A DNA stretch of 59,536 nt from positions 56,348 to 115,883 of the forward strand of contig JAUNSK010000010.1 of assembly GCA_030539275.1 (NCBI GenBank), written 5' to 3'. The stretch is from Oscillospiraceae bacterium (GTDB lineage: Bacteria; Bacillota; Clostridia; Oscillospirales; Ruminococcaceae). The position numbers and the translations under genes are program-made. The notes below the pieces were generated by a model. That model ran no database searches. It had not been told where the DNA came from and worked only from the letters and a program-made list of their open reading frames with translations. Positions 32,003 to 48,544 of the stretch are shown piece after piece. The first letter of the stretch is position 1. Every line of letters starts with the position of its first letter.

Positions 32003-32650
32003 ATGAAACGTTTATTTGTACCGTTATTAATGATCGGAATTTTATTTATGCTGTCAGGATGCCTCGGAGGCACGACAAAGCAGAACGCAAAAACAACGCT
32101 TAATTCATCATTTACATGTGATATGAAGATGCTGCAGGATGATTCTGAATATTGCGCTGTTATATCCAGAATAGGTCCCGGTGCATGGGAAGCCGAGTTT
32201 ACCTCTCCGGAAACATTATCCGGCGTAAAGCTTTCATTTATGGATTCTGAGGTTACTGCTTCATACAAGGGCCTTGCATTCTCAATACCCAAGTCCGCTA
32301 TGCCTGTCAAGTCAATACTGACTTACTTCGTAAAAGCTGCCGATGATCTGGCACTTGCTGACGGATATGAGGGAACAGTCAAGGATGGAGTTATGACTGT
32401 AAAGGGCAACCTTGATGAGGGTGAATATGAAATGAAATTTGATGAGAAGACAGGAAACCTTCTGGCTTTCATAATGGATAATCTCAAAGTTACGATGGAC
32501 TTTACAAACATGAATATAACAAATCAGAACAATATGAACGATCAGACTGATATTTCATCCGGTGACTCAGCTCAGACACAGCCTCAGGAGGAAGTTACTT
32601 CAGCTCTGGAAACGTCAGGTGAAGATGGAGAAGTAACCATTGTAAGCTGA
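32003..32650 (+). CDS. Predicted lipoprotein of unknown function
   Basis: This 215-residue protein has a lipobox LSG/C at Cys20 in an N-terminal signal (MKRLFVPLL...FMLSGCLGG). The mature part looks like a beta-rich fold without enzymatic motifs, followed by a Gln/Ser/Thr-rich C-terminal tail. AGGAG precedes the ATG. It follows nnr by 64 bases and ends at a strong terminator, so it closes the 26054-32650 gene run. Function is unknown. Confidence 0.75.
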   Translation: MKRLFVPLLMIGILFMLSGCLGGTTKQNAKTTLNSSFTCDMKMLQDDSEYCAVISRIGPGAWEAEFTSPETLSGVKLSFMDSEVTASYKGLAFSIPKSAMPVKSILTYFVKAADDLALADGYEGTVKDGVMTVKGNLDEGEYEMKFDEKTGNLLAFIMDNLKVTMDFTNMNITNQNNMNDQTDISSGDSAQTQPQEEVTSALETSGEDGEVTIVS

Positions 32651-32667
32651 TTATTCATTCAGATATG

Positions 32668-32700
32668 GCAGATACCAGATATGTGGTATCTGCTTTTTTC
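32668..32700 (+). terminator. Terminator before the pilus locus
   Basis: A 10-bp perfect stem (GCAGATACCA, TGGTATCTGC) is followed by T6. It insulates the pilin promoter from the upstream genes. Confidence 0.9.
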
Positions 32701-32784: not shown

Positions 32785-32813
32785 TTGACAAATGACAACA
32801 TCACTGTTATACT
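32785..32813 (+). promoter_or_regulatory. Strong consensus promoter of the type IV pilin
   Basis: TTGACA (32785-32790) and TATACT (32808-32813) are spaced by 17 bases, the closest match to consensus on the plus strand in the window. The transcript would begin near 32820 with a TGAGG/CCTCA hairpin (32826-32841) that could protect its 5' end. Confidence 0.75.
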
Positions 32814-32882
32814 ATGTACATGAGATGAGGAAAACACCTCAGACATTAAATTAATTTCATTACAGAAAGGTAGATGTTTTTT

Positions 32883-33359
32883 ATGAGAAAATTAACAAAC
32901 ACAACAGTTCAAATCATTTCAAGAAGTCACGAGACTAAAAGTACAAACAAGCAGAAAAAATTAAAAGGCTTTACCTTGGTAGAGATAATAGTTGTACTAG
33001 TAATTCTGGCTATCCTCGCAGCAGCAATGATCCCGGCACTCACAGGCTACATCGATAAGGCAAATCAGAGAACAGCTCTTTCTGAGGCACGAAATGTTCT
33101 GATGGCAGCACAGACAGTATCAAGTGAAAAATACGCTAAGTCAGGTAATGTTCAGACAAGTATAGCACTTGATGACACGATCGAAGCAGAGATCCTCAAG
33201 CTGGCAGATCTTGACGGTTCAGCAGGAGATATTACAGCAATGACAACAACAAAGGGCAAAGTTACAGCACTTACATATATAACAACAAAGAGCTATAAGG
33301 TAGAATATACCAGCGCAGGCGGCTTCTCAGAACCAGCACCTTATACACCAGCTACATGA
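32883..33359 (+). CDS. pilA: Major type IV pilin-like protein
   Basis: This is a 158-residue prepilin. A long charged leader of 29 residues ends in Gly29, and cleavage before Phe30 would give FTLVEIIVVLVILAILAAAM, the hydrophobic N-terminal helix with Glu5 at residue 34. The globular part is small, Ala/Thr-rich and ends in a Pro-rich stretch. It is first in the locus, has its own strong promoter and a hairpin behind it, so it is probably the most abundant subunit. The start may be 32874 instead of 32883: AAAGG is 3 bases from the first and 12 from the second, neither ideal. Confidence 0.9.
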   Translation: MRKLTNTTVQIISRSHETKSTNKQKKLKGFTLVEIIVVLVILAILAAAMIPALTGYIDKANQRTALSEARNVLMAAQTVSSEKYAKSGNVQTSIALDDTIEAEILKLADLDGSAGDITAMTTTKGKVTALTYITTKSYKVEYTSAGGFSEPAPYTPAT

Positions 33360-33407
33360 TAATATATATTATCAGCTGAGCTCAACAAATTAAAATAGTT
33401 TCAATAA

Positions 33408-33446
33408 AAAGCATTCAGCACTTGACATATGAGTGCTGGATGCTTT
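33408..33446 (+). terminator. Partial terminator between pilin and pilus machinery genes
   Basis: A 15-bp stem with one mismatch (AAAGCATTCAGCACT, AGTGCTGGATGCTTT) is followed by only TTT before other bases. A leaky stop would give high pilin and lower machinery expression from one promoter. Confidence 0.65.
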
Positions 33447-33485
33447 AAAGTGTTTATATGGATTTTTTAAAAGGAGTTGGTATGT

Positions 33486-34736
33486 GTGGCAGTATATCAG
33501 TACACAGCCTCAAATATCGGAGGTAAAATTAAAAAGGGACAAATGACAACAAATAATCCTGACCAGCTCCGTGAGGCACTTAAACTACAGAATCTTTATC
33601 TTATAGAGTTTGAAGAAAAGATCAACAAAACAGTAGGCAAAAAACTCAACGGAAGAGAACTTGCTGAGTTCTGTAGAGAGCTGAGTGCACTTCTCGGATC
33701 AGGAGTTTCAGTAGTAAGATCATTCAGCATCATTTGCAAGCGTCAGGCTGCCCCGAAGCTGAAAGCAGTTTATACCAGTATTTCGACTCAGATAAAGAGA
33801 GGCGTTACTCTTTCAGATGCAATGGCTATGCAGGGAAACACTTTTCCGGAGATGCTTATCAACATGATAAAAGCAGGAGAAGCCAGCGGAAAGATAGATC
33901 AGACATTTGAAAAAATGTCGGTACACTATGAAAAGGAATACAGACTTAATAATAATATCAAAAGTGCGCTTGCATATCCTAAGATGCTTGGTATTCTGAT
34001 AGTTCTGGTGGTGATGGTCCTGTTCACGTTCATTATGCCGACATTTTTTGAACTGTTCGAAGGAATGGAACTTCCCGTCCTTACACAGATAGTTATGAAG
34101 ATAAGTGACATTTTCAAACAGCATTTTATCATGATCGTACTTATCGGAGTTATAGTCTGTATGGGAGTTTACTACTTGTTTCATATATACATAGTACGGA
34201 AAACATTTGACCGGATCAAGATAAAAATACCCAAGGTCGGAGCACTTATGAAAATCATTTATACATCCCAGTTTGCAAGAACACTTGCATCTCTGTATGC
34301 AAGCGGAATGAACATTATTGATTCACTTCAGATATCAAAAAACACGATTCCTAACCTGTACATAAGAGAACAGTTTGATCCTGCGATCAGAAAAGTCAGA
34401 TCAGGCAATACACTGAGTGAAACGCTTGAAACTATTGACGGATTTGATATCAAGCTTTCACAGACTGTTGAGGTAGGAGAAGAAACAGGCCGGCTTGACA
34501 CCATGCTTATTTCGACAGCTGATTCATATGAATATGAATCGCAGAAGGCAGTGAGCAAATTGATATCGATCATTCAGCCGGTTATGATCGTATTTATGGC
34601 AGGGATCGTTCTTCTTATAGTGGGTGCCGTAATGCTTCCGATTTTTTCAATGTACGGGAATATTGAAAAATCAAGCGACCAGTCAGGACAGATGGCATAT
34701 GTCGACTATATTGATTATGAGGAGGATGTAATATGA
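33486..34736 (+). CDS. pilC: Type IV pilus inner-membrane platform protein PilC (GspF family)
   Basis: This 416-residue protein has two GspF domains (about 65-190 and 265-395), each preceding a membrane helix, with the repeated pattern of LSALLGSGVSVVRSF and LASLYASGMNIIDSL. PilC couples the assembly ATPase to pilin insertion in the membrane. The start is a GTG at 33486 (MAVYQYTASN) because AAGGAG ends 9 bases upstream; a TTG at 33477 is in frame but immediately abuts that site. Its stop overlaps the pilM-like start by four bases. Confidence 0.93.
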   Translation: MAVYQYTASNIGGKIKKGQMTTNNPDQLREALKLQNLYLIEFEEKINKTVGKKLNGRELAEFCRELSALLGSGVSVVRSFSIICKRQAAPKLKAVYTSISTQIKRGVTLSDAMAMQGNTFPEMLINMIKAGEASGKIDQTFEKMSVHYEKEYRLNNNIKSALAYPKMLGILIVLVVMVLFTFIMPTFFELFEGMELPVLTQIVMKISDIFKQHFIMIVLIGVIVCMGVYYLFHIYIVRKTFDRIKIKIPKVGALMKIIYTSQFARTLASLYASGMNIIDSLQISKNTIPNLYIREQFDPAIRKVRSGNTLSETLETIDGFDIKLSQTVEVGEETGRLDTMLISTADSYEYESQKAVSKLISIIQPVMIVFMAGIVLLIVGAVMLPIFSMYGNIEKSSDQSGQMAYVDYIDYEEDVI

Positions 34737-35614
34737 CAACTTCACTGTTTATATCAAATGAATCTGTAAAGATAGCAGCAGGAGAACATAGCGGAAAGAA
34801 AATTAAAGTAAAGACTATAATTAATGAACAGCTTGACGAAGGTATTATGATTAACGGTGTTATTATGGATGCACCACGGCTGAAAACGGTTCTTGAATCG
34901 GTCTGGAAGAAAAATAAATCACTTTCAAAAAAAGTGAATTTAACAATTGACAGTTCATCTCTCATAACAAAGATACTTGAGGTGCCGCTTCTGAATGAAT
35001 CGAAGCTCATGACATATATAAGCCAGAACTTTCAGGATATTGAGAATTATGAAAATATGCTGCTTGACTACATGGTACTTGAACCTCATACTGAATCAGG
35101 CGGTGCAAGTGTTCTTGCAGTTCTTGCAGAAAAGGATTTTATCAGTGAGTATACGGAGCTTCTGTCATCACTGGGGATAAAGATCAATAAAATAGACATC
35201 TCTCTGAGCTGCCTTATCAGGATCATTTCGTTTACGAAAGGAAAGCTTGGCAACACATATATTGCAGCAGTATTTGATAAAAATATTGTCGTTCTGGTTC
35301 TTTTTGTTAATGGAAAGTTCCGGTTTTCCAGAAGAATTCGTATCGTATCAGAAATAAATTCTGAAGAAATGTTTGACGAACTTGTAAAAATACTATCAAA
35401 TATGATACAATTTAATAAGTCAGAAAAAACTAATTCAGATATAACGGACATTTATATGTGCGGTTTTTTATCGCAGGAGAACCAGATATATAAACAGTTG
35501 TCGGATTCTCTGGATGTAAAGGTAAGTGCTTTCCCCAGAATCGGGAATGTTCTTATGCCGGAAGGCTTCCATGAAGGAGATTTCATGTATCCTGCTGGAA
35601 ATCTTATAAAATAA
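34733..35614 (+). CDS. pilM: PilM-like actin-fold pilus assembly protein
   Basis: This 293-residue cytoplasmic protein has no membrane helix and shows the alternating strand and helix pattern of the PilM/FtsA-like fold, with the divergent EVPLLNESKLMTYI segment in place of the usual PilM motif and KDFISEYTELLSSLGIKINKID in the middle. Sequence similarity is weak; the assignment relies on size, the four-base overlap with pilC and the downstream pilN and pilO-like genes. PilM normally binds the N-terminus of PilN on the cytoplasmic face. Confidence 0.72.
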   Translation: MTTSLFISNESVKIAAGEHSGKKIKVKTIINEQLDEGIMINGVIMDAPRLKTVLESVWKKNKSLSKKVNLTIDSSSLITKILEVPLLNESKLMTYISQNFQDIENYENMLLDYMVLEPHTESGGASVLAVLAEKDFISEYTELLSSLGIKINKIDISLSCLIRIISFTKGKLGNTYIAAVFDKNIVVLVLFVNGKFRFSRRIRIVSEINSEEMFDELVKILSNMIQFNKSEKTNSDITDIYMCGFLSQENQIYKQLSDSLDVKVSAFPRIGNVLMPEGFHEGDFMYPAGNLIK

Positions 35615-35674
35615 ACCGGATACTATAAAGGCATAAAATCAAATTTATGCATTCTGACGGCAGGGGGTGGAGCA

Positions 35675-36250
35675 ATGAGAAAACTCAGACGTAAAAATAT
35701 AGACCTGTATGATAAGCTGATACATATTTCCGATAAATCAAAAGGTAAAAAGAAAAGTGCTAAATTTAAATATTTAACAGCAGGTGCAGCATGTGTAGTC
35801 GTTGCGGCAGCTGCCTTTACAGTATCACAGCTTTATCTCAGCAAAGCTCAGGAACGGTATGATGAAATAAGCGTAAAGGCAAATGATCCGGAGCTTCAGT
35901 CGGTAATAGCAGAAGATGAGATGCTTGTCGCAAATAATGAAGCACTCACTATTGTTGTTGACAAATACAGCGAAAACCGGCTTGCCATTTCAGAGTCAGA
36001 AAAGCTGAGCGAAAACATGAAGGATGATATGATAAAAATTATTCTGTCATGTCAGACCCAGAATACCAGAGTAACCGAAATAAGTTTCGACGGAACATAC
36101 TTTACAATAACAGGCATAGCACAATATGTTGATATGGTATCTGATTATGTTTCTGTGCTTGATTCCAAAGATCTGTTTTCAGCCATCAGCTATACAGGTT
36201 TTACGGGTGCAGGCGATACCTATAACTTTACAATTTCAGCTTCATTCTGA
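35675..36250 (+). CDS. pilN: PilN-like pilus alignment protein
   Basis: This 191-residue bitopic protein has a basic cytoplasmic N-terminus beginning MRKLRRKNIDLYD, one membrane helix at about 34-54 and an extracytoplasmic domain with a coiled-coil segment. A short N-terminal segment before the helix containing N-(I/L)-(D/L)-L resembles the PilM-binding motif of PilN. The assignment is by position and topology as much as sequence. It begins 60 bases after pilM with GGGGGTGGAG upstream. Confidence 0.7.
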   Translation: MRKLRRKNIDLYDKLIHISDKSKGKKKSAKFKYLTAGAACVVVAAAAFTVSQLYLSKAQERYDEISVKANDPELQSVIAEDEMLVANNEALTIVVDKYSENRLAISESEKLSENMKDDMIKIILSCQTQNTRVTEISFDGTYFTITGIAQYVDMVSDYVSVLDSKDLFSAISYTGFTGAGDTYNFTISASF

Positions 36251-36264
36251 CTGGGGGAAATAAC

Positions 36265-37020
36265 ATGACCAATATTACTTCTAAACAAATAGTCACACTG
36301 GTAGTTCTTGTAATGGTTCTTTTTATGGTAATAGTCGGACAGTATATGGTGAGGCCTGTTCTTACTGATGCAGGTGAACTGAATAAAAAATCTGAAAAAC
36401 TGGAAATAAAATATGAAGACATGCAGTCACAGGCTTTGCTTTATGAAGTAGATAATCAGGACAACATTAATTTTAATGAACAGATAGCAAAAGAAAAGGA
36501 AAATCTTCTTCCTGTCATGAAAAACAGTGAACTCGATAAAATTGTTACAAAAATGGTAGTAGCAAGCGGACTTTCAGTTTTATCTCTGGATATCGGACAG
36601 ACGCAGCCTTTCACTATCCGGATCCCATACAAGCCTGTGAAAAGCGAAACTGACAAGGACAATGAGAAAAAAGACCCGGATGACGTATCAGTGTCAGAAA
36701 CTGATGATGATGTTCAGACAAACGAAGACGGTATAGTACTTCCGGATCCTGAAAAATATCCGGGTGCTGAGTTTATCAGTGATGACTTCGGAAATTACTT
36801 TCTTGAGTATAAAACAGGTGAGTATTCATGCGAGCTTTGTTATAATCTGACCGGCAGATATGAAGACATTCAGAAACTTTTAAAAAAAGTTTCTGAGAAC
36901 AAAGCAATGAGCATAGGCGGGATCAGTTTTGAAAACTGCGAGCAGCTTTCAGAGACCTGCCAGTACAAAGCGGTTATTTCAGTTATTGTGTATATGTATG
37001 ATGAACTTCCTGATTTATGA
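36265..37020 (+). CDS. pilO: PilO-like pilus alignment protein
   Basis: This 251-residue bitopic protein has an N-terminal membrane helix (about 8-28), a coiled coil, and an extracytoplasmic domain. An acidic insert rich in Asp, Glu and Ser (about 125-160) splits the domain. The end portion (YEDIQKLLKKVSENKAMSIGGISF) matches the ferredoxin-like fold typical of PilO proteins. GGGGGAAA lies upstream. Together with PilM and PilN it would form the assembly platform linking ATPase and pilus. Confidence 0.75.
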   Translation: MTNITSKQIVTLVVLVMVLFMVIVGQYMVRPVLTDAGELNKKSEKLEIKYEDMQSQALLYEVDNQDNINFNEQIAKEKENLLPVMKNSELDKIVTKMVVASGLSVLSLDIGQTQPFTIRIPYKPVKSETDKDNEKKDPDDVSVSETDDDVQTNEDGIVLPDPEKYPGAEFISDDFGNYFLEYKTGEYSCELCYNLTGRYEDIQKLLKKVSENKAMSIGGISFENCEQLSETCQYKAVISVIVYMYDELPDL

Positions 37021-37035
37021 TGCCGGGGTGATAAA

Positions 37036-37434
37036 ATGACAGGTAATAAAAGACTTCATGGATCTGCGATATTATGGGCTGTCTGTACTCTGATGATTTT
37101 TATGGTTATCCTGACAGGTATTTTATCTCTTAATAAAAGGTATATGAATGAGGAGATATACAGATATTCGGATAAGCAGGCAGAATTCAGTGCACGTTCA
37201 GGAATAGATATTGTTTCAGCTGCTATTATCGATTCAAGTATACCTGTAACCTCAAATCAGGTTGATCTGAAATTTGATGACTCATCGGGCTGTACAGTTA
37301 CAATAGAGCAGAATCTCGGAAGTATTGAACTCAGATCTGTTGCTCAGTGCGGTACTTCTGAATATACTTTAGTCGGACTTATGAAGAAAAACAAAGCCGG
37401 AACATGGGAACTTACCGGATATGTTACATATTGA
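37036..37434 (+). CDS. PilX/GspK-like minor pilus protein
   Basis: This 132-residue protein has a single N-terminal membrane helix (about 9-30: AILWAVCTLMIFMVILTGIL) and a short exported domain with two cysteines that could form a disulfide. It lacks a clear G/FTxxE cleavage site. Size, position before two pseudopilins, and the GSAILWAVCTLMI opening suggest a PilX-like minor component; alternatives are possible. GGGGTG is upstream of the ATG. Confidence 0.55.
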   Translation: MTGNKRLHGSAILWAVCTLMIFMVILTGILSLNKRYMNEEIYRYSDKQAEFSARSGIDIVSAAIIDSSIPVTSNQVDLKFDDSSGCTVTIEQNLGSIELRSVAQCGTSEYTLVGLMKKNKAGTWELTGYVTY

Positions 37435-37443
37435 GGTGAGATT

Positions 37444-37776
37444 ATGAAGAGAAAACTATCAGGAATGACGCTTGCTGAAATAATGGCAGCACTGACGATT
37501 CTTGTTCTTGTTTCTGCATTTGCATACGCCGGCATAAGCACAGCTGCAAATTTTATGCGCAGGGGTTCTGATATAAGTCAGGAGCGGTGTACGGCGCAGA
37601 ATAAGCTCGAAGACAAGATCTTCAGTGCTCATAATGATGATACTTTCAGTGATTATGAAGGTACAAGTGTTGAATGTGTAATAGATGCAAAAACCAGCAT
37701 CAGGCTGAATGCAAAAAAGATAGTATCAGATAACAGCTCTGATTACAGCTATACATACTATGCCGGCACTCACTGA
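37444..37776 (+). CDS. Type IV pseudopilin (minor pilin)
   Basis: This 110-residue prepilin has a 7-residue leader ending KLSG, with cleavage expected before Met8, followed by MTLAEIMAALTILVLVSAFAY; Glu12 is the conserved Glu5 of the mature protein. The globular domain is short. GAGGTGAG lies upstream. It is one of a pair of minor pilins between the PilX-like gene and pilB, the position where tip-complex subunits are commonly encoded. Confidence 0.88.
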   Translation: MKRKLSGMTLAEIMAALTILVLVSAFAYAGISTAANFMRRGSDISQERCTAQNKLEDKIFSAHNDDTFSDYEGTSVECVIDAKTSIRLNAKKIVSDNSSDYSYTYYAGTH

Positions 37777-37795
37777 TTTGAAGGGGCTGGTGCCA

Positions 37796-38383
37796 ATGAA
37801 AAAAAAGCATGTTTTAAAGGGAATGACTCTTGTTGAGGTTATGGTATCGCTCGTTATACTGAGTGTTCTGGTTGCCATGTCATCGGCAATGATAATCATA
37901 AGCATGAATCTCCTGCTTAAAAACGCCAGGATGAGGGATGCTCAGAATAACGGGAATTCGATATATGAATTTATCGAACGCAAGCTTGAATATGCAGTCA
38001 GCCTTAAAATAACAAATACTGACGAAAAAAATGAGATAACAGGTGTATATACAGAAAAGATATACATAAAAGACGGAGTGATAGCACTTGGGTGTGATCC
38101 GTCTGATGTGTCGGTACCCAAGGATGTACTGGACAAGAGAACGATATGCAGTACTCAGATGCTCCGCGGAGCAGACTATGATATCAGTTTTTCTCAGGGT
38201 GAAGAGCCTGAGAAAATATATCTGACGGTTTCGATAAAACGAGAAAATGAAGTTGTATATGAGCGGTCAGGAATGATCCGCTTTCTTAATTATGAATACT
38301 GTTCAGATGAAACAGTAAGCAATCTTGAAGCAGACACTCAGATGAGCGGAGATATGATAATAAGCTACAGTTATTTTGAATAG
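37796..38383 (+). CDS. Type IV pseudopilin (PilW-like minor pilin)
   Basis: This 195-residue prepilin has the leader MKKKHVLKG and a mature N-terminus MTLVEVMVSLVILSVLVAM, with Glu14 as the conserved Glu5. The larger globular domain is beta-rich. The ATG at 37796 is used because a start at 37760 would lie inside the previous gene and add an unlikely leader. Together with the preceding pseudopilin it probably forms a tip complex for the large adhesin encoded two genes further on; this is an inference from family biology. Confidence 0.88.
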   Translation: MKKKHVLKGMTLVEVMVSLVILSVLVAMSSAMIIISMNLLLKNARMRDAQNNGNSIYEFIERKLEYAVSLKITNTDEKNEITGVYTEKIYIKDGVIALGCDPSDVSVPKDVLDKRTICSTQMLRGADYDISFSQGEEPEKIYLTVSIKRENEVVYERSGMIRFLNYEYCSDETVSNLEADTQMSGDMIISYSYFE

Positions 38384-38411
38384 CCGCAGCAGTACCAAGG
38401 AGGAAAACACT

Positions 38412-40088
38412 TTGAAAAATATACCTATAGGAGAGGTATTGAAGGAATACGGTTATATAACTGAGGATCAGATACAGGAAGCACTTAAGTATCAGAAAAC
38501 AGATGCCGGACATGGCAAGAGACTTGGTGCTCTTCTTCAGGAGCTTGGCTTTGTATCTGAACTGCAGGTTCTTGAATGCCTCGGAAAAAAGCTGGATCTT
38601 CAGCTTATCAGAATAGAAGATTATGACATTGACCTTACCGCTGCCGAGAAAATACCTAAGCCTCTTGCAGTAAAATATAACGTTTATCCGCTGTCACAGT
38701 TCAACAACAGGCTTCAGCTTGCTATGAGTGATCCCCTTGATTTTTATGCGCAGGAGGACATAAGACAGATCGTAGACATGCCTCTGGAGATAATGCTTGC
38801 CGACAAGGCATCAATAAGCAGGATCATCGATCATAACTATGCTGAGATCGGCGCAAAGCTAGCAGCTAAAAAAGCAAATATTTCTGTAAAGGATGAAGTA
38901 GTTCCTGAAATAGAAATAGAAGACGGTGACGATGATGTTCCGGTAATCAAGCTTGTAAACTCATTGCTGGCACGTGGATACAGTACAAATGCCAGTGATA
39001 TACATATTGAACCGTTTGAAGACCATACACAGGTCCGCATGAGAATTGACGGTATGATAGTTGATTATGTCACACTTGCAAAATCACTGCATATGTCTCT
39101 TGTTGCACGTATAAAGATCATGGGTAATATGGATATTGCTGAGAAGAGAATACCTCAGGACGGCAATTTTCGTACAATTGTAGATGGTTTTGATATCAGC
39201 ATACGTGTTTCTGTTATTCCGACAATATATGGTGAAAAGGTCGTTATGAGATATCTGACATCAGATACGACTATTGACAAGGCAGGACACTTCGGAATGG
39301 ATGAATTTGCGTATAAACGGCTCTGCAGAATGCTTGAGGCACCTAATGGGATCATATATATAACCGGCCCTACCGGCTCAGGCAAAACAACTACACTGTA
39401 TATGGTCCTTGAACACCTTGCGAAACGGCAGGTCAATATTTCTACTATTGAAGATCCGGTGGAAAGAGGGCTGCCAAGGATCAACCAGATGTCTGTTAAT
39501 GTTGCTGCGGGCCTTACATTCGGTGTAGGACTCAGGGCACTCTTAAGACAGGACCCTGATATTATAATGCTTGGCGAAACACGTGATGCTGAAACGGCAG
39601 AGATCTCCGTCAGAGCAGCTATTACAGGCCATCTCGTTGTTTCAACACTTCATACAAATGATGCTATTTCATCGATAGTCAGACTTGAAGATATGGGACT
39701 TGCCCCTTATCTTGTTGCAAATTCCCTTGTCGGGATCGTTGCACAGAGACTTGTAAGAAAGGTCTGCGAAAACTGTGCTTATGAAACTGAGCCTACTCCG
39801 GAGGAGACAGCGATACTCGGAGAAAGAATACCTAAGATCCGGAAGGGACATGGATGCCATATCTGCAACAATACCGGCTACAAAGGACGTATGTCAATAC
39901 ATGAAATGGTTATAATTGATAAAACACTTAAGAGAATGATTACGAGCGGTGCCGACAGTCAGACAATGTTTGACTATGCGGTAAAGGCACAGGATATGAA
40001 AACACTGCGTGAAAGTGCTATAGAACTTGTAAAGCGCGGAATTACAACACCTGGTGAGGTTATGAAGGTATCATATTATTCCGACTAG
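38412..40088 (+). CDS. pilB: Type IV pilus assembly ATPase PilB (GspE family)
   Basis: This 558-residue hexameric ATPase has an N-terminal MshEN-type domain (about 1-130, ITEDQIQEALKYQ), the Walker A ITGPTGSGKTTTLY near residue 317, the Walker B-like DIIMLGETRDAETAEISVRAAITGH near 382 (described over two motifs), and a zinc tetracysteine (CENC, then CHIC) near 460-495. It powers pilus extension. The TTG at 38412 is set by AAGGAGG (38397-38403) 8 bases upstream. The tetracysteine separates it from PilT retraction ATPases. Confidence 0.95.
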   Translation: MKNIPIGEVLKEYGYITEDQIQEALKYQKTDAGHGKRLGALLQELGFVSELQVLECLGKKLDLQLIRIEDYDIDLTAAEKIPKPLAVKYNVYPLSQFNNRLQLAMSDPLDFYAQEDIRQIVDMPLEIMLADKASISRIIDHNYAEIGAKLAAKKANISVKDEVVPEIEIEDGDDDVPVIKLVNSLLARGYSTNASDIHIEPFEDHTQVRMRIDGMIVDYVTLAKSLHMSLVARIKIMGNMDIAEKRIPQDGNFRTIVDGFDISIRVSVIPTIYGEKVVMRYLTSDTTIDKAGHFGMDEFAYKRLCRMLEAPNGIIYITGPTGSGKTTTLYMVLEHLAKRQVNISTIEDPVERGLPRINQMSVNVAAGLTFGVGLRALLRQDPDIIMLGETRDAETAEISVRAAITGHLVVSTLHTNDAISSIVRLEDMGLAPYLVANSLVGIVAQRLVRKVCENCAYETEPTPEETAILGERIPKIRKGHGCHICNNTGYKGRMSIHEMVIIDKTLKRMITSGADSQTMFDYAVKAQDMKTLRESAIELVKRGITTPGEVMKVSYYSD

Positions 40089-40121
40089 GATCGGTGTGTT
40101 CATAAAAAGGAAGTGTCAGAT

Positions 40122-43100
40122 ATGAGAAAACAAAAGGCATTTACATTAATTGAAATAATATGTGTGCTGGCAATTGCTGCTATAATTGCTGCTGCTGCTG
40201 TTCCGGGAGTAAGCAGATATATAGATCATACAAAAAGAATGTCGTGCAAAGCAAACATGAACAGCATAACAGATGATATAAGATATGAAACAGTTTCCAG
40301 AAGATTTCAGGATTCTCAGGATCTGAACACTGAAATTGAGAACATAATAAAAAAATATTCTGATTCTGAGCCTGTATTCAGTGAGATAACGGATGAAAAA
40401 ACACCTGAATATATAAAGATATCATGTACAGACAGGCATATTTGTCCGAATAACGGAGACTTAAGTATAAACTGGACAATCAAAAATACAACAGACAGCC
40501 AGAAAATTCAGCTGGATCTGGAATGTGCATGTTCATGTCTCGATAAGGATGACAAATGCTCAGTATCAGCTGAAGCGATGCTTAAGGGCGAAAGAAAGAT
40601 GGATTATTATGAATATCTGTGCAATACAGCACAGAAGCTTTATGATTTCTCATCAGAATATTCAAAGTCACAGATAAACTCAGGACAAACGAAATACGAT
40701 ATTGCAGCTTCACTTACAGGCAAGCTTGAAAAGAACAAGAAAGTATATCTATACAGAGACAGCAGCAGTTCAGTATACGGAACACAGATAACACATAATT
40801 CCACCATTGCTTCTTTTGTGAGCAGCAATGGTGAGGATATAGGCAGCTGGCTTAATAATACCGCAGACAATACGCTATGGGGTGTTACAGTAAATGACAA
40901 GGGTGATATTGAATGGCTCAGTTATTATACAAGGTACATAGATGAATCCGGAACCTCATACAGTCATTTTATTGTTGTAGAAAACGGAACAGTAACAACA
41001 ACAAAGGATGATTATTATAACCTTACGTCTGCCAAGTCAAAATCCTGGAATCCCCCTGCCGAGGGTACTCTTGGTTCAGCATCTGACAAGTGTGAATGGT
41101 CAGTATCAGGAGGAAAAGGAGTGCAGACAGTCGGTGTACAGATGAAATTCCAGTCATCTCCGACACACTGGACGCAGAGAGATTCGGACTGGTACGTTCA
41201 GGGATGGGGAATATATCTTAACCCTAATTTCGGAAACAGCAATATTTATTCACAAAGAACTCTCAGTGATCTGAATGCATCTTACAATGCAAATTCCGGA
41301 GCATTTTCAATCGATGACAGTCTTATCATAAGTGCCTGCTATAACAATGGCGATCATGTTGTATTGTCACAGATAAATACCAGTGATATAGATACAATAG
41401 ACTACGGCTCAGGCAGTACAAGATGGTATCTGACAAATGGCTATATCGCAGTAGACAGTGTAAATCAGCAAACTGAGTGGATCGGTAATCTCAGTACTTT
41501 GAAAACACTTATCAACAAACAGGATAAGCTTATAAAGAATTTCGTAAACGGAGTAACTGATGAGCTTATCATTGCATATCAGGAATACAATAAGTACACA
41601 GACAACGGCGTTTATAAGCATGAACCTGTAACAAAATACTGTGTTCTTCACCGCGTATTTACAGGTAAAACCAAAATTAATTATGAGACAGGAAAAATAG
41701 AAGGACAGTTCAGTATAGAAAGAGGATATTACAGCAGCAGCGGAAAATATTTCAGTGCCGAAACAATTGCAACGAATTATGAATCTGTTTCACCGTTTAC
41801 AGAAGATTCAGGAACAGGTTATTATTTCACTGAAACAGTAAACTCAAAGACAAGAGAATTCTATGAGGATGAACTTCTCAAGAGACTTGATAGTGAAGCA
41901 GTAAGCGCAGATATTTATTACAGATACACATACATTAAAGATTCTGTTGCTACAGTTAAATCTGTAAAGGCAGGCCATATTGAAAATACCCTGACAGGAG
42001 TGAATGTAACACTAAACGATTCTAAGGCAGCAGGCTTTTACGTTGATGTGCTAAATGTTAAGGCAGTCTACACTCTGACTGTAACTGACTCCATTCAGAA
42101 TCAGGAAAAAATATATGAAAACAGGCTTAAAACTATAGTACATCACAGTATGGCTGAAGACGGCTTCTACCTGACTTTTGATTCAAACAGCAAAAAGTAT
42201 GAGGCACTGATAAGCGATACAGGCGATGATGAAATACTTAAAACACTTGTTTCAGAGGATAATGTCAATAAAAAATTATATGTTGTATATAAAGACGTGA
42301 ATATATGCGCAGGAATGGTAGTTATCAATACAAGGAGTGTTACAAATGACTTCGTGTATTACAGAGATTCATCTGTTTATGATCTGCTCAAGATCTTTGA
42401 TATCTTTTATTTAAGAGAACTGTATGGTGACGAAGTCTATATAGATGAATATCTCGGAAATGATACGGATGTTGTAGTTCCGTATACAGTGCTTGGGTTC
42501 TATTCAACCACTCCGGTTCTTGATTTTCGCATTAAATGTACAAAGATACGAAACGGGCTGTACTACATAGATGACGGACAGTTATATCATGTTTCGAGAT
42601 TTGGCAAGACACCGTCTAATGATACAACGGATGGTTACTCCTGGGAAGACAATGGACCCAAATGCAAGGTTAAAAACCTGTATAACGTCAGAACTATTTC
42701 ATTCAGCGAAGGAATAAATGATATCGGTGCATTTGCTTTCTACGGTTACGGCAATATCGTATGTGATATAAATATTCCGGCAAGTGTCGAAGTAATAGGA
42801 AGAATGGCATTCAGGGGTACAGGCATTACCGGAGTAAATTTTGAAGAAAACGGAAATATTAATACGATCTACAGTGCTGCCTTCGGACAGTGTGCAAATC
42901 TTCAGGGATATATCAATATTCCGGATAATATTTCATCTCTGAAAAAGTTTACTTTTGAAAAATGTGTTAATATCACTGGTTTCAGCCTTGGAAAGAGTCT
43001 TGAATTTATCGGTACCAGTGCTTTTTCAGGATGTACCGGAGTAACAGAAAATTTAATTATTCCTGATACCGTTAATACGATAGAGGACAGTGCATTTATT

Positions 43101-45842
43101 AATTTCGGATCAGGCCTGGAAGATATATATATTCTGGGCGGTTCATCAAATAACGGAACGAAGATTGACAGTAACAGATTCAGCAATCTTAAAGTTAAAA
43201 ATCTGTATGTTGGAGGAAAAGTTGCGACAATAGGTAATTCTGTATTCAGCGGCTTTAAAGGAATAACAGGAACGCTTTCATTTGGTGACAGCGTGACTAA
43301 TATTCTCAACAACGCCTTTGCATCATGCACAAATATTTCAGGTGATCTTGTTTTGCCTGAGACAATAAAGCAGATAGGTTCCGGTGCTTTTTCAAATTTT
43401 GGGACAGGAAGCGGCAGTCTTAAGATTTACGGCGGCTCAGCTGACGCAGGCAAAACAATAAGCTCAGGAATATTCACTCAATCCAGATTCAGAAACATTG
43501 AAATAGGCGGAAATGTTGAGTCAATAGGAGGCAGTGCGTTTGCATACATCACAACACTTAAAGGAAATCTGACTATAGATGATACCGTTACAAAGATAGG
43601 TTCTTCTGCATTCAGTGGCTGTGCAGGACTTGACGGTCAGTTATATTTAAGTACTTCTTTAACCAGTATCAATGATTCAGCATTTGATGGATGCGCAGCA
43701 CTGAAGGGAAGTCTGAATATAAGTCACAATGTTAGAAATATAGGATCTAATGCATTCAGAAACTGCTGGGGTTTTGACGGAGATCTTATATTTGAGACTG
43801 ATATTACTGATGATACACTTGAAATGACGGGTGTCAGCAGCATAGGAAGCGGCGCGTTCACCGGATGCAGCGGTTTTACAGGTGACCTTGTTATACCACA
43901 GACTGTAAAATCTATTGGAAACGGGGCATTCAGTTCATTCGGCTCTGGAACCGGGCAGCTTGGTATATACGGAGGTTCTGCAGAAAACGGTGCAATGATA
44001 GGTTCAGGTATATTTACCAACAGCGTATTTAACGGTATTTCAATAGGAGGAAAAGTAACACATATCGGGGCTAATGCATTTGATAATTCCGGCGGTGCTT
44101 ATAAAAAGCTTACAGGCCTTCTCTCACTTGACACAAGTGTTGAAAAGATCGATGCATATGCATTCAGAAAATGTTCGGGTCTTACAGGCAATCCGGTCAT
44201 ACCACAGAAGATGACATCTGTCAGCGACAGTACATTTGAGGATTGTTCAGGCCTTACCGGCAATCTGATAATTTCAGATAACATAACGTCTATCGGAACT
44301 AATGCTTTCAGGGGTTGCAGAGGATTCAGTGGTGACCTGATTATCCCGGTTAGTGTTACTGTTATGAAATCCGGAGCTTTTTCAAACTTCGGAGATGGAA
44401 CCGGCAGACTCCTGTTATACGGAGGTTCGGCTGATTCCGGAAAAACAATAGGAAACGATATATTTACCGGTTCAAAGTTCAGAGATCTGTATATAGGCGG
44501 AAATATTTCAAAGATAGGTGCTAATGTATTTAATCAGAATACCAATATTACCGGAAAGCTTACAATAGATAAGTCAGTTACTGATATCGGTGCATCTGCA
44601 TTCAGCGGATGCAGCGGATTTACAGGAGACCTTCTGATACCTGAAAGCGTAAAAAGTATGGGCAGCAACGCATTTGCAAACTTTGGCAAAGGAACTGGCA
44701 AGCTGACATTACACGGCGGATCATCAGATTCAGGAAAGACGATCGGATCAGGTATATTCACAAATTCTGCATTTATTGATGTTACTATAGGCGGAAACAT
44801 AACAAATATAGCAAGCAGCGCTTTCAACGGGAACACTAAACTAACAGGAACATTAACTATTGAACCGGGAATACAGAGTATCGGAAGCAATGCTTTTTAC
44901 AAGTGCTACGGATTTACCGGCAGTCTTACTATTCCGTCGACTGTCACACTAATGGGCGACAGCTGCTTTTCAAATTTCGGACAGTATGGCGGCGATCGCA
45001 ATATGACCGGAATTGACATTTCGAAACCAAGTATGGACTCGCTTTATTGTTATGCAAAGGTTGATAAAATAACAAACCAGTTCGGATATACTCACTTTGA
45101 TAATATTATCCTGATAGACGGTGCAAAGGACTTTGCAACTGCATCTTTTGTAGGCCAGAGCTGTAAGTATATGATAATTCTGTCACGTCCGGATACGACT
45201 TATTTCAGCAACGCTGACGCACTCGGCAGATGCTACAGCCATCCGAAGATGTTTTTTGGTGACGGATGCATTGCTAAAACCAATCCGTTCAGTCATACAA
45301 GAGCTGATGTCCCGGGCGTATATGATCATTTCTATAATCAGGCGGTATGTATTCCAGATGAAATGACCGGCAGTAAAAATATTACGCTTGAGAGCGGGGA
45401 TAAAAAGTTTACATATCTTAAAGAGATCTATACTCACAGTGAACTCAAAGAACATGATCCGGAGTTTTATGATGTAATATGCAGCGTACTTAATATCAGT
45501 ACACTTGATGAGATATGTACATGTACTCATGAAGTCAGGAATAATGTCGCTCAGGCGGCACCGGACGTTCCGGACAGCCAGGTTTCAACCCGAAATATTA
45601 CACAGGCAGTAACAGATATCGGTGTAATAACAAGGTCAGCAGAGACGGCAGCAGGAATTGACGAATTAACACAGTCTGCTGCTGATACCACTGAACATTT
45701 AAATGAACAAACTGCTGAGCAAACGTTGATGCCGGAAAGCGAAAACGGTGACTCCGGTATCACTCAGCCTCAGACAAACTGTTCACAAACACAGACAGAA
45801 TATGATTATCCTGAATCTGCAGTGTCTCAGAAGCCGGCATAG
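40122..45842 (+). CDS. Giant prepilin-like adhesin with BspA-type leucine-rich repeats
   Basis: This 1,906-residue protein opens with a class III prepilin signal, KQKA/FTLIEIICVLAIAAIIAAAA, with Glu11 as Glu5 of the mature form; the -1 residue is Ala rather than Gly. Residues about 30-160 resemble a pilin globular head. The next 690 residues are beta-rich and unidentified. From about 850 to 1615 come BspA/Treponema-type leucine-rich repeats (pattern IGxxAFxxC), punctuated by five FGxGxG...GGS...GkxI blocks near 1005, 1103, 1284, 1434 and 1531. A C-terminal domain and a Thr/Gln/Glu-rich tail follow. There is no LPXTG or dockerin. The ATG at 40122 is used, with AAGGA upstream. Confidence 0.85.
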   Translation: MRKQKAFTLIEIICVLAIAAIIAAAAVPGVSRYIDHTKRMSCKANMNSITDDIRYETVSRRFQDSQDLNTEIENIIKKYSDSEPVFSEITDEKTPEYIKISCTDRHICPNNGDLSINWTIKNTTDSQKIQLDLECACSCLDKDDKCSVSAEAMLKGERKMDYYEYLCNTAQKLYDFSSEYSKSQINSGQTKYDIAASLTGKLEKNKKVYLYRDSSSSVYGTQITHNSTIASFVSSNGEDIGSWLNNTADNTLWGVTVNDKGDIEWLSYYTRYIDESGTSYSHFIVVENGTVTTTKDDYYNLTSAKSKSWNPPAEGTLGSASDKCEWSVSGGKGVQTVGVQMKFQSSPTHWTQRDSDWYVQGWGIYLNPNFGNSNIYSQRTLSDLNASYNANSGAFSIDDSLIISACYNNGDHVVLSQINTSDIDTIDYGSGSTRWYLTNGYIAVDSVNQQTEWIGNLSTLKTLINKQDKLIKNFVNGVTDELIIAYQEYNKYTDNGVYKHEPVTKYCVLHRVFTGKTKINYETGKIEGQFSIERGYYSSSGKYFSAETIATNYESVSPFTEDSGTGYYFTETVNSKTREFYEDELLKRLDSEAVSADIYYRYTYIKDSVATVKSVKAGHIENTLTGVNVTLNDSKAAGFYVDVLNVKAVYTLTVTDSIQNQEKIYENRLKTIVHHSMAEDGFYLTFDSNSKKYEALISDTGDDEILKTLVSEDNVNKKLYVVYKDVNICAGMVVINTRSVTNDFVYYRDSSVYDLLKIFDIFYLRELYGDEVYIDEYLGNDTDVVVPYTVLGFYSTTPVLDFRIKCTKIRNGLYYIDDGQLYHVSRFGKTPSNDTTDGYSWEDNGPKCKVKNLYNVRTISFSEGINDIGAFAFYGYGNIVCDINIPASVEVIGRMAFRGTGITGVNFEENGNINTIYSAAFGQCANLQGYINIPDNISSLKKFTFEKCVNITGFSLGKSLEFIGTSAFSGCTGVTENLIIPDTVNTIEDSAFINFGSGLEDIYILGGSSNNGTKIDSNRFSNLKVKNLYVGGKVATIGNSVFSGFKGITGTLSFGDSVTNILNNAFASCTNISGDLVLPETIKQIGSGAFSNFGTGSGSLKIYGGSADAGKTISSGIFTQSRFRNIEIGGNVESIGGSAFAYITTLKGNLTIDDTVTKIGSSAFSGCAGLDGQLYLSTSLTSINDSAFDGCAALKGSLNISHNVRNIGSNAFRNCWGFDGDLIFETDITDDTLEMTGVSSIGSGAFTGCSGFTGDLVIPQTVKSIGNGAFSSFGSGTGQLGIYGGSAENGAMIGSGIFTNSVFNGISIGGKVTHIGANAFDNSGGAYKKLTGLLSLDTSVEKIDAYAFRKCSGLTGNPVIPQKMTSVSDSTFEDCSGLTGNLIISDNITSIGTNAFRGCRGFSGDLIIPVSVTVMKSGAFSNFGDGTGRLLLYGGSADSGKTIGNDIFTGSKFRDLYIGGNISKIGANVFNQNTNITGKLTIDKSVTDIGASAFSGCSGFTGDLLIPESVKSMGSNAFANFGKGTGKLTLHGGSSDSGKTIGSGIFTNSAFIDVTIGGNITNIASSAFNGNTKLTGTLTIEPGIQSIGSNAFYKCYGFTGSLTIPSTVTLMGDSCFSNFGQYGGDRNMTGIDISKPSMDSLYCYAKVDKITNQFGYTHFDNIILIDGAKDFATASFVGQSCKYMIILSRPDTTYFSNADALGRCYSHPKMFFGDGCIAKTNPFSHTRADVPGVYDHFYNQAVCIPDEMTGSKNITLESGDKKFTYLKEIYTHSELKEHDPEFYDVICSVLNISTLDEICTCTHEVRNNVAQAAPDVPDSQVSTRNITQAVTDIGVITRSAETAAGIDELTQSAADTTEHLNEQTAEQTLMPESENGDSGITQPQTNCSQTQTEYDYPESAVSQKPA

Positions 45843-45852
45843 ACAAACAATA

Positions 45853-45904
45853 ATAACCACCGATTATACCCATTTATTCTGGTATAATCGGTGGTTATAC
45901 TTTT
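45853..45904 (+). terminator. Terminator ending the pilus locus
   Basis: A perfect 18-bp stem (45853-45870 with 45881-45898) is followed by ACTTTT. It is the longest uninterrupted stem in the window. Confidence 0.85.
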
Positions 45905-46015: not shown

Positions 46016-48544
46016 ATGAAAATAGCATTTTCTACTCTCGCTTGTCCTGATTTCAGCTGGACAGACATTTATTCTATGGCAAAGGATCTCTCATTCGATG
46101 GCATAGAGCTAAGAGGCCTTGGTAATGACATTGATGTAATGCGTGCAAAGCCGTTTACAGAAAGTGGACTGCCGAAGACTATAAAGAAGCTGAATTCCCT
46201 GAACATCGAGATTCCATGCCTATCCTCCGGTTGCTGCTTAAAATTCAAGGATAAATACAACGAAAATAAAAATGAGATAACTCAGTATATTGAGCTTGCT
46301 TCAAAGCTCGGAACTTCTTTTATCAGAATTCTTGCAGATCTTGAACCACAGCCGGATGACGATGTTGATGACAGTTATATTGTGACAGTATTAAAGGAAC
46401 TCGGAGAAATTGCTGCCGAAAAAAATGTAATACTGCTTGTTGAATCAAACGGTGTTTATGCTGATTCTGCAAGACTCAGAAAGCTTCTTGACGATGTTTC
46501 AAGCAAGTCAGTTGCTGCTCTGTGGGATTTCCATCATCCATATCGTTATTTTGGTGAGTCAGCTGCACAGACAGTTTCAAATCTCGGACCATACATAAGA
46601 TATGTTCATGTCAAGGATAGTGTGATGGTTGATTCAAAGCCTGAATACAGAATGATGGGAGAGGGCGATCTTCCTCTTGATGATATGTTTGCAGAGCTCG
46701 CCAAGGTCAGCTACGACGGATACATATCTCTTGAGTGGGTCAAGAGATGGGCTTCATACCTTTCAGATGCCGGTATCGTTTTTCCGCAGTTTGCAAACTA
46801 CATGAGCAGGTACAGAAACAGCTCATCTCATATACTTCAGACCAACAAGACAAACACAGGACAGTATATCTGGAAGAAGAACACTCTTATCAAAGAAACA
46901 TTCCCGGATGTACTTGACAGAATATGCGAAGAATTTCCTGATCAGTACGCATTTAAGTATACTGAACTTGACTATACAAGAACATATACACAGTTCAGGG
47001 ATGATGTTGACAGATTTGCAAGATCCCTCATAGCTATGGGAGTCAAAAAAGGCGATCATGTAGCTATCTGGGCAACAAATGTTCCTGCGTGGTATATTAC
47101 TTTCTGGGCAACAACAAAGATCGGTGCCGTACTGGTTACAGTAAATACGGCATATAAGATACATGAAGCAGAGTATCTGCTCAAACAGTCAGATACATTT
47201 ACTCTTGTAATGATCGAAGGCTACAAGGGTACTAACAACTATATTGAAATAATGCAGAAACTCTGTCCTGAGCTTGAAAACTGCAAGCCCGGCGAACTCG
47301 ATTCATCAAAACTCCCGTATCTTAAAAATGTGATCATCGCAGGTGAAACCAAGGTAAACGGCTGCTATACATGGAGCGAGGCTATGGAGCTTGCTGAAAC
47401 TGTTCCGGCAGCTGAGGTTGAAAAGAGAAGAAGAAAAGTTGACAAGGATGATGTCTGCAATATGCAGTACACATCAGGTACAACAGGATTTCCTAAGGGA
47501 GTTATGCTTACACACTTCAACGTTGTAAATAACGGTAAGGCTATCGGTGACTGTATGGATCTTTCTACAGCAGACCGTATGATGATACAGGTTCCGATGT
47601 TCCATTGCTTCGGAATGGTTCTTGCCATGACTGCCAGCGTTACACACGGAACTACTATGTCACCAATTACAGCATTTTCACCAAGAAAGGGTCTTGCATG
47701 CATCAACCAGGAAAAGATCACTGCATTCCACGGTGTTCCTACAATGTTTATTGCAATGCTTGAACACGCAGACTTCCCTGCAACCGACTTTTCGTATATG
47801 AGAACAGGTATTATGGCAGGAAGCCCATGTCCTGTAAAGGTTATGGAGGATGTTGTAAACAAGATGCATATGACTGATATCTGCATCACTTATGGTCAGA
47901 CTGAGGCAAGTCCGGGATGTACGATGAGCAAGACTGATGATTCACTCGAACACAGAGTAAACACAGTAGGACGTGAAATGTTCGGCGTAGAGTGCAAGAT
48001 AGTTGATCCTGAAACAAACGAGGATCTTCCTGATAATGTTGACGGCGAGTTCGTTGCAAGAGGCTATAACATCATGAAGGGTTATTACAAGATGCCTGAG
48101 GCAACAGCTGCAGCTATTGATGAAAACGGCTGGCTCCATACAGGAGACCTTGCCCGCAGAACACCGGACGGCTACTACAAGATCACAGGACGTATCAAGG
48201 ATATGATCATCCGCGGCGGAGAAAACATTTATCCTAAGGAGATAGAAGAATTTATCTATACTCATCCGAAGGTAAAGGATGTTCAGGTAATAGGCGTTCC
48301 TGATGAACAGTACGGAGAGGAAATAATGGCATGTGTCATCCTCAAGGAAAATGAGACATCAAGTGAGGAAGAGATCAAACAGTTTGTTATGGACAACATG
48401 GCAAAGCATAAGGTTCCCAGATATGTTGATTTCGTAACAGAATTCCCGATGAACGCAGCCGGCAAGATACTCAAGTACAAGATGAGAGAAACTGCAGTAG
48501 ATAAGTTTGGCCTTCATAAGGCAAGCAAGATAGTAACAGCGTAA
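46016..48544 (+). CDS. Sugar-phosphate isomerase-like TIM barrel fused to AMP-forming acyl-CoA synthetase
   Basis: This 842-residue protein joins two complete enzymes. Residues 1-270 form an AP-endonuclease-2-like TIM barrel (MKIAFSTLACPDFSW, VESNGVYAD, WDFHHPYRYFG, YVHVKDS), the fold of sugar isomerases/epimerases and inosose dehydratases, with metal-ligand-like Glu, Asp and His residues. Residues 290-842 are an acyl-CoA synthetase with YTSGTTGFPKG near 485, YGQTEASP, the GENIYPKEIE motif and a C-terminal catalytic lysine in NAAGKILK. Substrates are unknown. The frame is continuous with no internal ribosome site seen at the junction. GGAGG lies upstream of the ATG. Confidence 0.85.
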   Translation: MKIAFSTLACPDFSWTDIYSMAKDLSFDGIELRGLGNDIDVMRAKPFTESGLPKTIKKLNSLNIEIPCLSSGCCLKFKDKYNENKNEITQYIELASKLGTSFIRILADLEPQPDDDVDDSYIVTVLKELGEIAAEKNVILLVESNGVYADSARLRKLLDDVSSKSVAALWDFHHPYRYFGESAAQTVSNLGPYIRYVHVKDSVMVDSKPEYRMMGEGDLPLDDMFAELAKVSYDGYISLEWVKRWASYLSDAGIVFPQFANYMSRYRNSSSHILQTNKTNTGQYIWKKNTLIKETFPDVLDRICEEFPDQYAFKYTELDYTRTYTQFRDDVDRFARSLIAMGVKKGDHVAIWATNVPAWYITFWATTKIGAVLVTVNTAYKIHEAEYLLKQSDTFTLVMIEGYKGTNNYIEIMQKLCPELENCKPGELDSSKLPYLKNVIIAGETKVNGCYTWSEAMELAETVPAAEVEKRRRKVDKDDVCNMQYTSGTTGFPKGVMLTHFNVVNNGKAIGDCMDLSTADRMMIQVPMFHCFGMVLAMTASVTHGTTMSPITAFSPRKGLACINQEKITAFHGVPTMFIAMLEHADFPATDFSYMRTGIMAGSPCPVKVMEDVVNKMHMTDICITYGQTEASPGCTMSKTDDSLEHRVNTVGREMFGVECKIVDPETNEDLPDNVDGEFVARGYNIMKGYYKMPEATAAAIDENGWLHTGDLARRTPDGYYKITGRIKDMIIRGGENIYPKEIEEFIYTHPKVKDVQVIGVPDEQYGEEIMACVILKENETSSEEEIKQFVMDNMAKHKVPRYVDFVTEFPMNAAGKILKYKMRETAVDKFGLHKASKIVTA

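Follow-up and report, generated by a model that had tools for sequence, protein, structure and literature searches.

Modular pilins and the pilus loci of ruminococci

Pilins that bear grafted modules, or modular pilins, form a described class of more than 1,200 proteins in 264 architectures, and the main text of the 2021 survey places IPR026906 among the 15 commonest extra modules, without a clear function given there (PMC8179133). This entry corresponds to the leucine-rich repeat (LRR) family LRR_5 (PMC5998147, PMC8613185). Two modular pilins of Streptococcus sanguinis, there named PilB and PilC, are adhesive and have been proposed to lie at the cap or tip of the pilus (PMC8179133, PMC9934059). 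In monoderms, type IVa pili are marked by PilM, PilN and PilO (PMC6916266). The pil3/pil4 cluster of Ruminococcus flavefaciens includes PilD and PilT together with pilins (PMC3672088), pilA1/pilA2 of R. albus is another known Ruminococcus pilus locus (cited in PMC4300822, PMC4081043 and PMC6916266), and expression of pilus genes has been reported for both species in sheep (PMC8092306). Here we describe a pilus operon at positions 32785–45904 of a 59,536-nt stretch of DNA, referred to as the window, from a Ruminococcus-like gut bacterium. Its last gene encodes a prepilin of 1,906 residues, referred to as the giant.

The locus is probably the operon of a type IVa pilus in a cellulosomal bacterium, and its giant modular pilin would carry an LRR domain on the pilus, likely at or near the tip, as an adhesin. 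Judged by its sequence, the giant has the features of a modular pilin, namely an N_methyl domain and an extra module, LRR_5, that is not specific to pilus biology. Like PilB and PilC of S. sanguinis, it starts with a prepilin leader and a pilin-type head, behind which comes a bulky non-pilus module, and it is encoded in a monoderm type IVa locus (PMC8179133, PMC9934059), and by analogy the system would work in a similar manner. The S. sanguinis module is a vWA or lectin domain (the PilB chain in the PDB has 420 residues), whereas in the window genus it is an LRR domain behind a stalk, in proteins of 1.9–4.7 thousand residues. A first-pass annotation of the window had proposed a new kind of surface system, a claim that is not supported: pilins with grafted modules, including the BspA-type LRR module IPR026906, are a described class, the combination of pilin and BspA-type LRRs is already known and the principle is that of a modular pilin (PMC8179133). 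What seems undescribed is how large the giant is, that its stalk can reach 35 tandem units and that the genus has a second, dedicated pilus. No description of this pilus locus was found in the literature searched, which comprised mostly open-access papers, without preprints or the supplement of the 2021 modular-pilin survey.

A giant prepilin with leucine-rich repeats

The giant gene (40122–45842, + strand) starts at an ATG at 40122 preceded by a GGAAG ribosome-binding site, which backs the length of 1,906 residues originally read from the sequence. The leader MRKQKA is followed by FTLIE, with Glu5 and Pro22, giving a class III prepilin signal, and the N-terminus matched N_methyl at 31.1 bits (E 1.5e-7; Pfam cut-off 21.2) and TIGR02532 at 26.5 bits (cut-off 16.3). 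Both the prepilin signal and the roughly 765 residues of BspA-type LRRs noted by the first-pass annotation were recovered in this way, the latter as eight LRR_5 stretches over the cut-off (343.7 bits) spanning residues 857–1618, or about 760 residues. The solved structures closest to the LRR part were those of LRR proteins, including PcpA (E 1.5e-8), and its match to the HupY/LrrG model fell far under the cut-off. The repeat type, LRR_5, is shared with BspA-type LRR surface proteins, PcpA and HupY/LrrG, which are held to the cell by other anchors; the giant has a pilin head instead.

The pilin head occupies residues 7–155. Across the nine heads found in the genus there were 27 invariant columns, and the pattern CPN...W.I...C.C was kept in all nine; a cysteine pattern near the end of other pilins may be similar. 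Glu5 and Pro22 were likewise present in 9/9 heads, and Pro22 in none of the 22 genus X, V and W pilins recognized by script. A model of the head built on an alignment of two sequences (pLDDT 73, pTM 0.64) had three strands and two helices, one of them 51 residues long, and looks pilin-like. When the head sequence was compared with the PDB, pilins ranked first, from E 3e-4 upward. A Foldseek search with the head model gave no significant match, and the first ten rows of VIA-align of the head held four pilin entries among a phage neck protein, pantoate-beta-alanine ligases and trimeric autotransporters.

The region past the head has no usable model, as AlphaFold of residues 1–493 returned a mean pLDDT of just 37. 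No domain was assigned to residues 155–560. One recognizable stalk unit of approximately 100 residues lies at 566–663, followed by a linker to about 855; E-values for stalk units come from a profile rebuilt with the matches themselves, and the window unit had already matched in the first round. The C-terminal part beyond the repeats ends in a low-complexity tail, and neither an LPxTG motif nor a dockerin was found in the window giant. Two other identities for the protein were considered and rejected. A Pfam scan of the whole giant (E 0.01) yielded LRR_5, LRR_8 and N_methyl only, with no beta-propeller of PilY1, and the conserved head ruled out an LRR protein of the usual kind whose start is hydrophobic by chance.

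A pilus operon conserved within the genus

The giant is the last of ten genes on the + strand that form one apparent transcription unit. The major pilin (32874–33359; N_methyl, E 2e-8) has the mature start FTLVE with Glu5 and Pro22, and is followed by the platform protein PilC (33477–34736; T2SSF, E 6e-55), PilM (34733–35614; PilM_2, E 4e-14, over the Pfam and under the NCBIfam cut-off) and PilN (35675–36250; Pfam PilN, E 7e-5, barely over the cut-off with 23.2 against 22.8 bits). The next two products, a PilO-like protein (36265–37020) and a PilX/GspK-like minor prepilin with Trp at position 5 instead of Glu5 (37036–37434), had no Pfam match at E 0.01; both were named from position and size, and the second also from its prepilin-like N-terminus. 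PilV/GspI-like (37444–37776; N_methyl, E 1.8e-4) and PilW/GspJ-like (37760–38383; N_methyl, E 1.4e-6) minor prepilins, with subtypes assigned from position only, precede the extension ATPase PilB, which also carries an MshEN domain of the type that binds cyclic di-GMP (c-di-GMP) (38376–40088; T2SSE, E 5e-120). All genes named in the first-pass annotation were thus found by open reading frame (ORF) and Pfam analysis on one strand and in the order it gave, with the PilO- and PilX-like names resting on the features above. By Pfam, PilB, PilC, PilM and PilN are encoded together at the locus, as in monoderm type IVa pilus systems.

A search for the same arrangement in related genomes, proposed with the original annotation, recovered the gene order in 8 of 11 genus genomes, a recurrence which argues that the order is not due to chance. 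The PilO-like gene lies in its expected place in the operon and was found in all seven relatives. Heads scoring above 200 bits were present in the same number of genomes (8/11), in nine copies because genome G006 carries two in tandem. The giant gene was the next after PilB in 8/8 genomes, with one inserted ORF between them in G007 (367 residues, L052 9352–10455). In a ninth genome, G003, the operon runs to the end of PilB, which is also the contig end (L199 25–1659), and the giant could therefore not be judged. The last residues of this PilB frame resemble sequencing adaptor, and repeats may break the assembly at this point. Neither this head nor this PilB type was found in G002 and G004.

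The last gene encoded a giant in seven of the eight operon genomes, with lengths of at least 1.7 to 4.7 thousand residues. In addition to the 1,906 residues of the window, these comprised proteins of 2,718, 1,950, 3,186, 2,794, 2,568 and 4,694 residues, of which the 1,950-residue copy of G006 ends at a frame break with the sequence resuming in the next ORF, and a G008 giant cut by a contig end at 1,684 residues. In G005 the frame stops after 354 residues, without LRRs. LRR_5 was detected in seven of the nine genus proteins, the exceptions being G005 and the cut G008 copy. Stalk units numbered 35 in G010, 11 in the cut G008 copy, two each in G001 and G007 and one in the window, and the unit was not found in the remaining four proteins. 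The G010 gene (L059 202–14286) encodes the 4,694-residue prepilin, and its DNA repeats are 77–89 % identical at several offsets. Most relatives are draft genomes, in which contig breaks may hide or cut giants, and gene names in their loci, as in those of other genera below, were mostly assigned by eye from N-termini.

Conserved machine and variable load

Divergence from the window was unevenly distributed along the operon. Against seven relatives, PilB was 80–86 % and PilC 61–81 % identical, compared with 35–49 % for the giant head and 28–36 % for the LRR part in the five relatives where this could be aligned; the last 186 residues of the giant had no match at E 1e-3 in any of the seven. In terms of sequence, this is a conserved machine with a fast-changing load; an engine that stays alike while its LRR load diverges suggests a ligand that varies from one species to another. 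The tandem giants of G006 (L050 2276–10427 and L060 326–9886; C1:764275-782285) displayed 94.5 % DNA identity over 1.8 kb of the LRR part and only 76 % over the first 0.8 kb, and the high-identity LRR stretch spans the frame break of one copy. This pattern suggests that the distal part was either exchanged or recently duplicated. We tentatively raise the idea, which we hold to be rather unlikely, that the second pilus, present in most of the genus, is a length-tunable lance. It would have a fixed engine and head, a stalk of one to 35 recognized units and an LRR tip reshuffled between tandem copies, such that species could retarget the pilus by swapping the distal part of a single gene.

A second pilus locus encodes PilD and PilT

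No prepilin peptidase match and no PilT over the cut-off were found on the window's contig (C35), on which only PilB scored. Elsewhere in the genome (3.68 Mb in 49 contigs), PilD, with both peptidase domains, and a PilT are encoded on contig C30. A short prepilin peptidase, probably of a Tad system, lies on C32, and the second of two PilT proteins over the cut-off is on C15, away from the pilus loci (G000:C15:168475-169497). Since neither a peptidase match nor a PilT over the cut-off was found with the locus and both occur elsewhere, the window pilus probably relies on a peptidase encoded elsewhere, and it is possible, though uncertain, that it retracts. The original proposal of a pilus adhesin encoded with its own machine is therefore retained in part: the pilin-headed LRR protein is conserved with assembly genes and is most likely borne by the pilus, but PilD and PilT lie elsewhere in the genome.

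The C30 locus (L047) contains genes for PilC, PilM, PilB, PilD, PilT, two small prepilins and two pilins. From its published description, the pil3/pil4 cluster of R. flavefaciens resembles this locus and not the window, although pil3/pil4 and the window have PilB, PilM and PilC/PulF-like genes in common and come from related bacteria (PMC3672088). The window locus was ruled out as a pil3/pil4-type pilus, as C35 gave no peptidase match and no PilT over the cut-off and the two PilB proteins of the genome are just 42 % identical. Two further genes of the C30 locus are of note. One (L047 5096–7396) encodes a 766-residue PilX-like protein with a hydrophobic start that lacks Glu5, by eye, and no Pfam match; in this locus a large module may sit on the K-type subunit. 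The other (L047 12670–14223), between PilT and the two pilins, encodes a papain-family peptidase with a lectin-like domain.

PilT over the cut-off was present in 11/11 genus genomes. It lay near a PilD-length peptidase in ten (all except G004), and an additional PilT was found elsewhere in ten (all except G003). G004 has a PilT of the second type, though no PilD-length peptidase was found in it. Regulation by c-di-GMP is plausible for the window pilus in view of the MshEN-type domain of PilB and 33 GGDEF matches in the genome.

Giant prepilins in other genera

Amongst 197 genomes of the family, heads above 200 bits were confined to the three genus members sampled, and the 17 other genomes with a match reached at most about 60 bits. 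A profile scan of further genome contigs, considered for the best 80 of 87 loci, gave a strong match over the head only for L078, from a member of the genus (E 9e-18); four other loci of these 80 encode giant prepilins with other modules. N_methyl proteins occurred in 44 of 147 genomes of the order and, among the matches listed, at least nine genomes (that of the window included) had N_methyl in a frame of more than 1,000 residues, such counts of giants being lower bounds.

Giants outside the genus (G041, G070, G077, G095, G104, G162, G163 and G175; Proteocatella and Lachnospiraceae) had frames of 1.1–5.2 thousand residues. By eye, the giant adjoins other pil genes or X/V-like prepilins in the first five of these genomes, a PilO-like gene precedes it in one of three loci of G163, and no pil genes were evident at the loci of G162 and G175. 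Counting also those of named genomes from the contig scan, there were 19 distinct giants outside the genus, of which all had Glu5 and 12 had Pro22. Fifteen of the 19 were scanned for modules, revealing GLUG in five, DUF285 in two, SpaA with Flg_new in one, M26_N in one and none named in six; LRR_5 was found in none of the 15. These giants are similar to that of the window in N_methyl, size and, at several loci, neighbours such as PilM/PilO-like genes or X/V-like prepilins, but differ in their modules. Together they indicate that giant prepilins turn up repeatedly among these lineages, with the LRR version restricted to this genus within the sample, and those beside pil genes form a set of natural examples with different modules. 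Three loci in Lachnospiraceae or Eubacterium (L085, L096 and L107) carry two giant prepilins in a row, the scanned ones with DUF285 or GLUG repeats.

Proposed function and alternative explanations

The genome gave at least 144 dockerin matches (150 of 238 candidates were scored), which identifies the source of the window as a cellulosomal bacterium and is one ground for calling it Ruminococcus-like. Of its 27 LRR_5 frames, none is longer than the giant, and no other has N_methyl. Pairing LRR_5 and dockerin frames on contig, place and frame length showed a dockerin in no fewer than 17 of the remaining 26 LRR_5 frames. The dockerin-bearing frames and the pilin-headed giant together indicate that LRRs are displayed by two routes, the cellulosome and, probably, the pilus.

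We propose that the giant would be inserted through the Sec/signal recognition particle (SRP) route and cleaved between A6 and F7 by the prepilin peptidase encoded at the other pilus locus. The PilB and PilC of the window would polymerize it together with the PilX-, PilV- and PilW-like pilins, its most likely position being the pilus tip or immediately beneath it. Held off the cell by the stalk, the LRR domain may bind a protein or a glycan presented by fibre, by the host or by microbes nearby, and this ligand would differ between species as the engine stays the same. The plant fibre or host surfaces suggested as ligand in the first-pass annotation go further than the evidence does, and it is the cellulosomal genome alone that makes fibre plausible. 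It is conceivable, though we think it unlikely, that the giant acts instead on other cells, whether of its own or of another species, or engages the cellulosome of the bacterium itself, and does not act on fibre or host. LRRs usually bind proteins, and with a dockerin on at least 17 of the 27 LRR_5 frames, the LRRs of cellulosome and pilus could meet.

Placement of the giant on the pilus can be questioned on other grounds. Pilins are bitopic in the membrane before assembly (PMC6916266), and the giant could be processed, remain anchored in the membrane through its N-terminal helix and span the wall as a surface protein, with the pilus genes making an ordinary pilus without it. Proteins of 1,900–4,700 residues are large for a pilus subunit, and the pilin fold of the head is tentative. 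However, Glu5 and Pro22 are retained in every head, as would be expected for helix packing in a filament, and the gene keeps its place after PilB throughout the operon genomes, the one inserted ORF aside. We accordingly regard a membrane-anchored giant as improbable, and incorporation into the pilus as the more probable. That the filament is a short pseudopilus serving protein secretion or DNA uptake, with the giant's repeats employed for that task and not for adhesion, is highly improbable: PilB and PilC do also score against GspE, GspF and Com models, under their cut-offs, but PilM, PilN and PilO are described as markers of monoderm type IVa pili (PMC6916266) and the LRR part matches surface LRR proteins such as PcpA.

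Attachment to fibre has been linked to type IV pili in Ruminococcus. The R. flavefaciens pil3/pil4 cluster (PMC3672088) fits the other locus of this genome. If the second pilus does present giant LRR proteins, fibre-degrading gut bacteria would possess a distinct organ of attachment that evolves rapidly, and the assembly machinery would have to accommodate pilins as long as 4,700 residues. One could then directly test how large type IV pilins can be and where modular pilins are placed.

Flanking and regulatory features

The limits assigned to the locus by the first-pass annotation, 32785 and 45904, fit a promoter-like site at one end and a terminator-like hairpin at the other. The former (32785–32813, + strand) is of the sigma-70 type, TTGACA-17-TATACT with a TG before the −10 element; it is a consensus match only, at 11 of 12 bases, and the best of 55 such sites in the region, a total near chance (44.3 ± 6.9 in shuffled sequence). 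The hairpin 3′ of the giant gene (45853–45898, + strand; −27.2 kcal/mol, z −8.4) was chosen by eye, has a short U run and is absent from the terminator scan's own list. Terminator-like sites in the region, at seven, were also near chance (6.8 ± 2.3 in shuffles); one, a consensus match, lies 3′ of the preceding gene (32667–32694, + strand). A strong hairpin 3′ of the pilin gene (33408–33446, + strand; −23.4 kcal/mol, z −6.2), also chosen by eye and without a U run, is a possible attenuator or mRNA stabilizer, and could set the level of the pilin above that of the machine.

A putative lipoprotein is encoded just 5′ of the operon (32003–32650) and also beside it in G005, G008 and G010 (41–49 % identity); it was not found in the stretches from four other relatives. 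Directly 3′ of the giant, positions 46016–48544 of the window form a single frame encoding a xylose-isomerase-like TIM barrel and an AMP-binding ligase. At the start of the window (1085–3433) lies a gene for a GH9 enzyme with a weak dockerin match.

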